A stretch of 64,000 bases of DNA. Source: Paenalkalicoccus suaedae. Its GTDB lineage: Bacteria > Bacillota > Bacilli > Bacillales > Salisediminibacteriaceae. A program made the translations under genes and the position numbers. Position 1 is the stretch's first letter, and each line of letters begins with the position of its first letter. Below are positions 10,951 to 51,372 of this stretch, in pieces. Location: contig NZ_CP041372.2 in NCBI RefSeq assembly GCF_006965545.2, positions 1 to 64,000 of the forward strand, in the 5' to 3' direction. Under the pieces are notes generated by a model, which had not been told where the DNA came from, did no database searches, and saw only the letters and a program-made list of their open reading frames with translations.

Positions 10951-11135
10951 TTGACACGTGAACGGTGGTAAAGGAGGGAAGATTGACTCAAGCGGAGGTC
11001 TGGGTGAGCAAAGGGAGCTTGATTTGATGCATACAGATCTTTCTTGATGTAAAGGAAGGCGCTTGACGCATATGGTCCTTAACTTTACACAAAGCAAACT
11101 AATAGGGTAGCAAACGAAGGCCGAAGTGATGTGGT
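10951..11135 (-). repeat. Inverted 21-bp-type degenerate repeat array upstream of rrn1
   Basis: On the minus strand this stretch reads ATGCGTCAAG, TTTACATCAAG, GTATGCATCAAAT and so on, matching the repeat downstream of both rRNA operons. The plus-strand cores (GAYGCA-like) begin at 10985, 11006, 11026, 11046 and 11065, spaced 21, 20, 20 and 19. One unit like the second repeat type (CGAAGTGATGTGG) lies near 11119. No gene is supported in 10874-11363 otherwise. The minus-strand reading frame across it is a by-product of a period divisible by three. Confidence 0.7.
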
Positions 11136-16765: not shown

Positions 16766-16970
16766 CGATCGTTTGCGTCAATCGAGAGAGTGTATACGTC
16801 TGTTAGGAGGTGGTTTACATCAAATCGGTGCGAGAGTGCGTCAGTTGGATCTTCGTATGCGTCGCCGCAGATTGATTTGCATCAAATGAAGGAGTGTATG
16901 CATCAGATAGAACGGCGTTTGCACTAAATCAGAAAGTAGGTACGTCGCTAAATTTTCCGTATATGACTAG
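16766..16970 (+). repeat. Type A 21-bp periodic array downstream of rrn1
   Basis: Nine degenerate units. The six-base cores (TGCGTC/TGCATC type) start at 16774, 16795, 16816, 16837, 16858, 16878, 16899, 16920 and 16941: seven steps of 21 and one of 20. The pattern is GTWTGCRTC, often followed by AAAT. The first eight units correspond in order to the units downstream of rRNA operon 2, so the two arrays share ancestry. The stretch decays by about 16965. Confidence 0.8.
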
Positions 16971-17020
16971 TAAATAGTGGGTCCAAATGTATCATAAAAA
17001 AAATGCCGAAACCGATAGAA

Positions 17021-17106
17021 TCAAGTAACAAGCGAAGTAGTCCGCAATTTGCGAGAAGTAGCGCAAAACTTGCCAAAAACCAACGCGGAACAAGCACTGT
17101 AAAGTA
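17021..17106 (+). repeat. Short type B repeat remnant downstream of rrn1
   Basis: Units CGAAGTAGTCCGCAA (17033), AGAAGTAGCGCAAAA (17054) and AAAAACCAACGCGGAAC (17075) are 21 bases apart, with weaker flanking ones. They match the second repeat type of the larger field after rRNA operon 2. The remainder up to the guaB promoter holds only a parS-like site. Confidence 0.6.
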
Positions 17107-22064: not shown

Positions 22065-23614
<1,550 letters not shown>

Positions 23615-31032: not shown

Positions 31033-31300
31033 CCGTGCTAAGCGGGGAGGTAGCGGTGCCCTGTACTCGCAATCCGCTATAGCGAGGCCGAATTCCTCTC
31101 TGAGGCTATCGATTTTCCTGGTCTGCCCTAAGTAAGTGGTGTTGACATTTGGGTTCCGCGCAACGGAATCCTGTGAACCCTGTCAGGTCCGGAAGGAAGC
31201 AGCAGTAAGCAGGTTCTTCCGTGTGCCGCGGAGTAGCCTGGATCGAGCAAACTGCTTAGGTAACGCTTGAGGGTCTATAGTCGAAGAGAGGTGCACGGTA
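31033..31300 (+). ncRNA. ffs: Signal recognition particle RNA (Bacillus large type, scRNA)
   Basis: About 268 bases whose ends pair (GCCGTGC with GCACGGT). It contains the SRP domain IV core TGTCAGGTCCGGAAGGAAGC at about 31181-31200 and an Alu-type 5' domain, as in B. subtilis scRNA (~270 bases). It scaffolds Ffh for membrane targeting. Lies between tadA and dnaX as in B. subtilis. Confidence 0.95.
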
Positions 31301-40191: not shown

Positions 40192-40308
<117 letters not shown>

Positions 40309-40411: not shown

Positions 40412-40740
40412 GGCATCGTTCGTTTGCGCCACATGGAGGCGCGTATACGTCAGGTTGGAGGTCGCTTGCATCAAATCAGCGAGTGAGTGCGTCACCTGAT
40501 CTGCCGTATGCGTCGAGGCAATTTGGTTTGCATCAAATGAAGGGGTGTATGCATCAGATAGAAAGGCGTTTGCATCACATTTAGCTACCACTGTGTCAGG
40601 GGGATCTTCGTATGCGTCTGTTCAACTACCTTTGCATCAAGAGGGAAACTGTTTGCTTCAAACGCCTGGGCGTATGCATTAAACAAGGGGTTTGTTGCGT
40701 CACTTGGTACTTGGTATGCGTCAAAGTGTATGGTGCAACA
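40412..40740 (+). repeat. Type A 21-bp periodic array downstream of rrn2
   Basis: Fifteen degenerate units. Cores (TGCGTC, TGCATC, TACGTC and similar) start at 40425, 40446, 40467, 40488, 40509, 40529, 40550, 40571, 40592, 40613, 40633, 40654, 40675, 40696 and 40717. Twelve steps are 21 and two are 20. The commonest pattern is GTWTGCRTCAAAT plus about eight free bases. Units GTATGCGTC and GTTTGCATCAAAT tend to alternate. No gene is supported here. Confidence 0.85.
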
Positions 40741-40756
40741 TCGCACACACCGAAAT

Positions 40757-41124
40757 AAGGGAGAAGTCTGTCACAAAAGAAGTAGTATGCAACACAGGAG
40801 AAGTAAGCCGGAAACGAAGTGGTGCGCAACCTACAAGAAATAAAATGCAAATTGCCAAAAGTATCGCGGAACAAGCGAGAAACAGTGTGGAACTTCGACA
40901 AAGTAAGATGCAAAAAAGAAGTAACGCATAAATAGTAAGAAGTAAAACGGAAATTGCTAGAAATATCGTGGAACAAGCGAGAAACAGTGCAGAAATTCGG
41001 CAAAGTAAGATGCAAAAAAAGAAATAGCACGGAAAAATGGAGAAGCAGAACATAAAGTGGGAGAAGTAAAACGCAACTCAGCAGAAGTAGTACGCAACTC
41101 GTAAGAAGGAATATAGTAGAGATC
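40757..41124 (+). repeat. Type B 21-bp periodic array, opposed to type A
   Basis: About 18 units with the pattern AGAAGTANNATGCAA. Unit starts: 40762, 40778, 40799, 40815, 40836, 40857, 40878, 40899, 40917, 40938, 40959, 40980, 41001, 41020, 41041, 41062, 41083, 41104. Thirteen of the 17 steps are exactly 21. A higher-order duplication is visible: the units at 40836-40899 recur almost unchanged at 40938-41001. The shared word GATGCAAA is the reverse complement of TTTGCATC in type A. Hydrophobic minus-strand frames across it are period artefacts. Confidence 0.82.
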
Positions 41125-41182: not shown

Positions 41183-41785
41183 TTATGCCACGAATCTCTT
41201 ACGCATCAACAATAATACTAATGGACCGAAGGCAGGTATAAATGCGAGCCAGCTGTAGCGAAGGCCCCACTCTTTTTTCAGTACATCATAAGAAAGCCAG
41301 ATAAGTACGAGAAAATCAACCGTCATGACGCTTACTAAATGAGAGCTCATGAACGCGTCTTGAAAGGCGCTTATAGAACCTTGTAGAGCGGTCACATAAA
41401 GGAGTAGTGCAATGATTGCGGCTAACACGATCAGTAACGGATGTAAGAGAGCTTTTTGCAAAAATCCGGGACCTCTTGGCGATTGACGTGTTACTTTACC
41501 ACGGATGATGAGATAAGGTAGCAAAGGGAACGCGCCGAGTCCAAAAGCTAAGATTGAAAAGGGCCATGCTGGAATACGATAGACATCCTTTGGTAGAAGG
41601 AGCATGGCAAAGATAAGTGGATATAAGCCTAGCATAGAAAACACAGCGACTACGAGCGGATCGACTTCGTCAAAGCTACCAGTAATTAGCGAGGTAAAGA
41701 TGGTATCGTCCGCATTATTTGCACCAGGTGCTAAAAAGAGCGCGTAGCCTAGCAGTGCAAGAAAAACAACTATTTTTACTTTCAT
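41183..41785 (-). CDS. Putative integral membrane protein, unknown function
   Basis: 200-residue protein with about six hydrophobic segments (roughly residues 3-20, 44-62, 70-95, 112-132, 150-168, 178-195). A short acidic loop (NNADDTIFTSLITGSFDEVDP) follows the first. The C-terminal half has D-x-LVLIWLSYDVLKKEWGLRYSW, faintly like DUF2834-type proteins, but I do not recognise the family with confidence. The ribosome site AAAGGGG precedes the ATG on the minus strand. It is one of only two minus-strand genes in the window and sits where csfB/xpaC/yaaN lie in B. subtilis. Confidence 0.8.
   Translation of the reverse strand: MKVKIVVFLALLGYALFLAPGANNADDTIFTSLITGSFDEVDPLVVAVFSMLGLYPLIFAMLLLPKDVYRIPAWPFSILAFGLGAFPLLPYLIIRGKVTRQSPRGPGFLQKALLHPLLIVLAAIIALLLYVTALQGSISAFQDAFMSSHLVSVMTVDFLVLIWLSYDVLKKEWGLRYSWLAFIPAFGPLVLLLMRKRFVA

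Positions 41786-49054: not shown

Positions 49055-51372
<2,318 letters not shown>

Follow-up and report, generated by a model that had tools for sequence, protein, structure and literature searches.

Dispersed intergenic arrays of short direct repeats phased in whole helical turns, putative protein platforms on bacterial chromosomes

The array of short direct repeats that lies downstream of an rRNA (rrn) operon in the window, i.e., the 64,000-nucleotide stretch of the Paenalkalicoccus suaedae chromosome analyzed here, represents a family of dispersed, intergenic, multicopy elements (A family) in which conserved cores follow one another at two turns of the DNA helix. Arrays with the same kind of spacing are built on other cores in the genus Rossellomorea. 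The polymeric binding platform that was put forward when the array was first noticed is still the best reading, and we put at about even the chance that these arrays are chromosomal platforms of double-stranded DNA, with a putative sequence-specific protein sitting on one face of the helix.

Results and Discussion

The window contains a phased array with a 104-bp higher-order unit

The main array, A2 (Table 1), has exactly the makeup claimed in the original prediction, 15 units with 12 steps of 21 bp and two of 20. Its identity at lag 21, the autocorrelation check proposed at the time, is 0.429 versus 0.251 ± 0.025 in dinucleotide shuffles, none of 300 being as high, and its identity at lag 104 (0.542) exceeds the lag-21 value. 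Since the 20-bp steps come at every fifth step (21+21+21+21+20 = 104 bp), A2 corresponds to a higher-order unit of 104 bp present in roughly three copies. The part of each 21-bp unit that had been called a free half is therefore a diverged filler as claimed, but it is not fully free because it is partly inherited via the 104-bp unit. Copies of this unit from several loci, aligned without gaps, are in register and display pairwise identities mostly of 0.5–0.75, from which we conclude that the unit is old. As for its position, A2 does lie downstream of the rRNA operon, but not immediately so, because it starts 113 bp past the 5S gene, beyond an apparent terminator (a terminator-like sequence seen by eye between the two).

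Other phased arrays are present in the window. Under a looser score, A1, which follows the first rrn operon, extends to 10 units, to ~16980. Array B is built on a unit that differs from that of A2 and recurs elsewhere in the same genome, and its lag-21 identity is 0.471 versus 0.315 ± 0.022 in shuffles (0 of 300 as high). Around the fragment that resembles the B unit, lag-21 identity of 16960–17100 is not above that of shuffles (85 of 300 as high).

Table 1. Arrays in the window and their context
Feature	Coordinates	Strand	Description
Array A2	40422..40734	+	15 units GTWTGCRTCANNT + filler; steps 21x4,20,21x4,20,21x4; about three 104-bp higher-order copies
Array A1, downstream of first rrn operon	16771..16937	+	8 units
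Array B, second phased array	~40759..41124	+	unit AGAAGTARNRYGCAAC + filler; mostly 21-bp steps, 18-19 each fifth step
Weak A-family array, upstream of first rrn operon	10973..11115	-	7 units; score 32.0 vs. best control 28.5
Fragment like B unit (by eye)	17018..17080	+	sequence resemblance
5S rRNA of operon upstream of A2	40192..40308	+	context, outside the element
200-aa open frame, 3' end toward arrays	41183..41785	-	context; without Pfam match

A-family arrays are scattered over the chromosome

A model of the 104-bp unit, built from sequence only, gave 80 matches with E ≤ 0.01 in the same genome, all of them on the chromosome contig. The stretches fetched around these matches (43 were scanned, four of them without a chain) contain 43 A-family chains, each of at least three units with an allowed spacing of 18–23 bp, and 36 of these chains score above the best reversed-sequence control, which yielded two chains at the listing threshold, the better one scoring 28.5. 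A special link to rrn operons had been suggested, to be refuted by a genome scan with scattered hits, and this is what the scan reveals: the arrays are not restricted to rRNA operons, only five of the 43 chains adjoining one and the remaining 38 lying between protein genes. Four of the five are 3' of a 5S gene (two in the window, the others at 104 kb and 712 kb), and the fifth, which is weak, lies upstream of the first operon. An element near oriC, also suggested, is not supported since matches in four complete Rossellomorea genomes spread, by eye, all round the chromosome. An rrn- or oriC-specific element was rejected on the genome census together with this spread.

Array spacing follows the helical repeat

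Steps within the 43 A-family chains, for which 18–23 bp were allowed, measure 21 bp in 259 cases, 20 bp in 34, 19 bp in 19 and other lengths in six. When nearest-neighbor cores with at most one mismatch are counted without imposing a spacing within arrays, the arrays themselves coming from the 18–23-bp chains, 179 of 247 are at 21 bp, 23 at 20 bp and nine at 19 bp, with another 24 at 40–42 bp. The 1231 distances of up to 215 bp between pairs of A-family cores, drawn from arrays chained under the 18–23-bp limit, are best fitted by a period of 20.81 bp, that is, 2 x 10.40, and the best fit to the same distances in the helical range is 10.40 bp per turn. Single-step Rayleigh fits ran up against the limits of the range tested and are uninformative on the exact period. 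Five consecutive steps are observed to sum to 104 bp in 108 of 162 cases, versus a mean of 54.8 and a maximum of 81 in 2000 shuffles of the steps within arrays, an excess that can stem both from selection and from the 104-bp unit being inherited.

Spacing was left free in the searches for TGCGTCA triples, for the Rossellomorea cores and for the second-unit (AGAAGTARNRYGCAAC) pattern, as opposed to the A-family chains. Of 150 genomes of the order, four (that of the window and three others) have three TGCGTCA cores in a row, 13–41 bp apart, at nine places altogether, each gap being of 20, 21, 40, 41 bp or the like, i.e., one or two units, and the backward control gave one. The second-unit pattern has 10 matches in the window's own genome, none in 29 relatives and none in the control. 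Its loci are of two kinds. Some are arrays like the one at 40759, in which 21-bp steps predominate; the others carry a compact element, AGAAGTGACRYGCAAT, which has steps (15–45 bp allowed) of 21, 31, 21, 31 wherever it is full, at four of four loci, and of 21, 31 at one further locus, adjoining upp. At 10.4 bp per turn, steps of 21 and 31 bp correspond to two and three turns, and those of AGAAGTGACRYGCAAT again add up to 104 bp. Since these loci may share one ancestor, they amount to one observation, not five.

Dissimilar cores share this spacing in Rossellomorea

In Rossellomorea, pairs of the core TTGCGTCA are found in 17 of 31 genomes (genus inferred), the control giving one in total, and the gaps among the matches listed are mostly of 20–22 bp or two units, with few exceptions. 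At 40 loci, this core forms one intergenic array each, of 3–7 units, in which 160 of 163 steps are of 20–21 bp (87 of 20, 73 of 21, 3 others). A second core, ATCCRGCCG, is present in 14 of the 31 genomes, one of which (G193) has a single off-register match, and its 21 arrays show 85 of 87 steps of 20–21 bp, 84 of them of 21. The third, TTTCGATAATAAA, is present in four of the 31, with 60 of 69 steps of 20–21 bp in 16 arrays (46 of 21 and 14 of 20). Neither of the last two cores was found in the control, and the step counts, made with 13–30 bp allowed, yielded no chains for any core in reversed sequence. By eye, the three cores are mutually dissimilar, and two core families coexist in some genomes (e.g., G174, G182, G184 and G191). 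Arrays of TTGCGTCA and ATCCRGCCG are terminated by a common 3' cap, TTTNACAWWWWWWNCCA (by eye). A GAGCGCTC-centered palindrome (as in GACTGAGCGCTCAGTC) is seen just past the array cap at several Rossellomorea loci (L269, L274, L288 and L289).

Of 39 relatives searched with the model of the window's unit, seven gave a match (8 of 40 when its own genome is counted), and six of the 39 have intergenic 21-bp arrays by eye, some of near-identical units. One match (L043, in G006) looks by eye like a 21-bp repeat within a coding, coiled-coil-like gene and is likely a false positive. At another (L044, in G027), near-identical 21-bp units, GTTTGGTGCGATGCACACCCT, make up a long array, apparently a recent expansion of another unit.

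The mean period varies among families, from ~20.4 to 21.0 bp, and in some arrays of other genera, which are near-identical 21-bp repeats, phase is uncorrected over many units. In TTGCGTCA arrays, 20-bp steps go with an AT-rich filler (GC 0.118 vs. 0.379, p=1e-17). This link is weak in the A family (GC 0.374 vs. 0.463, p=3e-4), where the 19-bp steps (GC 0.439) do not fit it, and it is contradicted by the TTTCGATAATAAA family, which is AT-rich yet has mostly 21-bp steps. Of three twist tables, only one gave p<0.05 for predicted twist per base in the A family, and only in Rossellomorea did twist differ in the expected direction with all three; on this ground, and because TTTCGATAATAAA contradicts it, we rejected twist as the cause of 20- versus 21-bp steps. 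Cumulative phase correction in Rossellomorea was likewise rejected: adjacent 21–21 steps are rare, with 4 observed versus a shuffle mean of 19.0 and none of 5000 shuffles as low, but testing phase variance directly gave a weak result, 170 of 5000 shuffles being as low. Selection on helical phase as such, the central idea of the original prediction, finds support in the 20.81-bp fit, in the 21/31 steps, in the dissimilar Rossellomorea cores, and in orthologous arrays that keep their core and lose their filler (see below).

A-family arrays are polarized relative to neighboring genes

Orientation was assessed for the 32 non-rrn A arrays with both neighbors called, gene calls being plain open frames. 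The gene on the 3' side of the array is observed to point at it in 29 cases (p=2.6e-6); on the opposite side, genes show no preference (17 of 32). Half of the arrays (16/32) are in convergent gaps and 13 are antisense in tandem gaps. Assuming an origin at base 1 and a terminus opposite, 24 of the 32 are head-on to replication (p=0.007). Elsewhere, the same polarity is displayed by ATCCRGCCG arrays (16 of 21), weakly by TTGCGTCA (23 of 38), and not by TTTCGATAATAAA (6 of 16 in the strand chosen). Such a fixed polarity relative to the 3' end of the neighboring gene makes a boundary role likely for the A family, and a boundary is also suggested by two families in which arrays lie at gene 3' ends.

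A protein on one face of the helix is the simplest account

The simplest way to account for cores that are kept, fillers that are free, steps of whole turns and the lack of an RNA fold is a protein that occupies one face of the DNA. The core, of ~7–12 bp, would be the contact site of this putative DNA-binding protein, and the filler would be free in sequence and held in length, so that successive sites are separated by two turns (20–21 bp) or by three (31 bp); in the window's own genome, whole elements would repeat at 104 bp, or ten turns. We infer that binding is cooperative, with protein copies side by side possibly forming a filament or wrapping the DNA. At gene boundaries, the complex might act either as a transcription roadblock for read-through or as a topological barrier between transcription units. 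More tentatively, the class of element may be set by geometry and not by sequence, lineages swapping the site, presumably along with its cognate protein, at conserved positions. Sites would then be quantized in whole turns, two or three, summing to ten, and the arrays would represent a one-face code for the nucleoid or for gene boundaries.

If the platform reading is true, there are dozens of loci in several genera at which the helix angle is selected and the sequence between sites is free, which would make these loci a natural record of the helical repeat of DNA in vivo. It predicts a cooperative DNA-binding protein with a site specificity that changes between species, and it would offer a direct test of how bacteria insulate adjacent transcription units.

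Orthologous arrays and the case for parasitic repeats

The main rival, which we regard as rather unlikely, is that these arrays are parasitic or self-propagating repeats with little or no host function, made by a machinery that copies or adds units, has a fixed two-turn ruler and appends a common end, with selection acting on how the element itself replicates. This would fit their patchiness within one genus, where the three cores are found in 17, 14 and 4 of 31 genomes, and the presence of different cores at one locus. Among 30 genomes viewed by eye at glyA-upp (330 bases before and 200 after upp), there is an array of TTGCGTCA in 10, of ATCCRGCCG in two, of TTTCGATAATAAA in one and of GAAGTGACRCGCAAT in the window's own genome, G008 has an array downstream of upp, and none was seen in the remaining 15. 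The number of units also varies between orthologous arrays, and the occurrence of one end on different cores suggests a shared machinery or a shared partner. There is a precedent in the pneumococcal BOX, RUP and SPRITE repeats, which are judged parasitic by their authors (PMC3049150).

Against parasitism, orthologous arrays retain their core as the filler decays. We identified, by their flanks, 136 orthologous and non-identical array pairs. In the 88 distinct pairs, with a median flank identity of 86%, positions 2–8 of the TTGCGTCA core differ in 3.6% of 1771 comparisons, and the free positions of the filler in 45% of 1122, versus 64–72% between random units, which indicates that the fillers are homologous but decaying. 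This contrast between core and filler is inflated, conservation being partly ascertained, because units were located by their core; moreover, since the cores of random units (3.5–4.4% difference) are as alike as those of orthologs, homogenization between units could add to selection. Of 337 orthologous units, 253 are of equal length and 74 show a one-base difference. It also speaks against parasitism that no transposase or other family recurs next to the arrays: among 364 flanking open frames, no gene family recurs across genera, the largest cross-genus cluster having four members. No gene traveling with the arrays was found on the same count. Viral spread was rejected as well, viral contigs yielding 13 stretches, 11 of which have an open frame through the match.

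Other alternative explanations

Gyrase wrapping, or a supercoil relief similar to that of REP/BIME, at gene 3' ends appears improbable to us. It would rely on phased bendability over ~104 bp, which is within the size range of a wrapped complex, the need for it arising from convergent transcription. The gaps in which A arrays lie, convergent or antisense in tandem at gene 3' ends, and their presence after rrn operons too, are in keeping with this. However, the core sequence is invariant, more than bendability needs, it differs from family to family with position classes remaining mixed, and the arrays are non-palindromic and without folding.

We give still less credit to ordinary minisatellites, in which neutral tandem duplication would make the period an accident of descent. 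The 104-bp higher-order copies within arrays and the near-identical 21-bp repeats in other genera point that way, as do the many pattern matches in other phyla, often with open frames, in a scan of all bacteria (at least 119 stretches, 80 of which were examined, the other 39 being used only in the ortholog pool). Already disfavored by the retention of the core relative to the filler at orthologous loci, this explanation also has to contend with dissimilar cores that have the same 20–21-bp spacing and with the 31-bp steps.

The same scan provided several arrays of TGCGTCAG, mostly with 20-bp steps, in two Acidobacteria assemblies (L113, L123, L140, L142, L147, L150, L172, L183 and L191); open frames are present in some of these and some of the contigs are short. 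In Rhodobacteraceae, TTGCGTCAT repeats are seen at 20–22 bp with a varied filler (L132 in Oceaniglobus and L158 in Thioclava). A Legionellaceae metagenome-assembled genome (L153) has a 43-unit chain with mostly 21-bp steps and no frame open through the chain.

An element acting at the RNA level or by coding, i.e., a structured 3' RNA, a small RNA, a Rho site or a heptad-repeat peptide, is very improbable. In the strand that the adjoining gene reads, C exceeds G by eye, which gave the idea of a Rho site, and for cores spaced strictly at 21 bp, an open frame runs through the array ±30 in 10 of 21 ATCCRGCCG and 9 of 16 TTTCGATAATAAA arrays. Nevertheless, frames are broken wherever steps are of 20 or 31 bp, which excludes coding in such arrays. 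Folding energies are no better than those of shuffles, either in the window array (z of -0.08 and 0.54) or in 40 Rossellomorea arrays (mean z of 0.18 and 1.43 on the two strands, with 3/40 and 0/40 below -2), and no Rfam family was matched by the arrays of the window. RNA structure as the basis of the arrays is ruled out by this shuffle-level folding.

RacA, which anchors the chromosome in sporulation, can be all but dismissed as the binding protein. TGCGTCA read backward includes its half-site, TGACGC, and its ram site is an inverted-repeat 14-bp motif. RacA-like open frames of 170–191 aa exist in eight genomes of the window's family, but those in G001, G007, G010 and G014 go without any array match, 26 Rossellomorea genomes (13 of them array bearing) have only frames of 301–361 aa among the matches listed, and the units are direct repeats in one orientation, not inverted ones.

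Relation to known repeat systems

Plasmid iterons and ParR/parC-type centromeres consist of direct, non-palindromic repeats about two turns apart, with protein on one face, and are single plasmid loci with an adjacent rep or par gene. The arrays share the direct repeats at two helical turns, but they are found at many chromosomal loci with several cores per genus, and no replication or partition gene accompanies them, there being no recurrent neighbor among the 364 flanking frames, the families of which are unnamed. CRISPR and TIGR arrays have a constant repeat, a variable spacer of near-constant length and a special terminal unit. This is similar to the constant core, the variable filler of near-constant length and the special terminal unit seen here; the differences are fillers of 7–9 bp, dozens of short arrays per genome, and no recurrent gene family beside the arrays as judged from the flanking frames. 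In eukaryotic rDNA, roadblock terminator arrays such as those of TTF-I are repeated protein sites past gene ends. The arrays likewise lie past gene ends, including those of rRNA genes, but 38 of the 43 chains are not at rRNA genes. BOX elements are built from modules, the inner copies varying and the ends being fixed, and the arrays are made along similar lines.

As small interspersed repeats, the arrays also resemble BOX, which folds into extensive secondary structure (PMC3049150); they differ in having no such structure and a spacing quantized in helical turns. REPs are 20–40-bp palindromes and include CGTC-tagged REP repeats (PMC3733652). Like REP/BIME, the arrays are dispersed, intergenic, clustered and in many copies, and there is a CGTC tag within one core. 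In contrast to them, they are phased direct repeats with no palindromic stem-loop and no folding excess. The nearest kinds are thus iterons and parC repeats in geometry, REP/BIME and BOX in dispersal, and CRISPR-like arrays in joining a constant to a variable part, and the arrays differ from each of them in at least one feature. On the strength of these comparisons and of the open-access literature searched, in which no description of such arrays was found, we rate them as a new class of element.

Other features of the window

In addition to the arrays and its two rrn operons, the window contains two T-box leaders (22067–22273 and 49080–49314) and a large SRP RNA (31033–31298).
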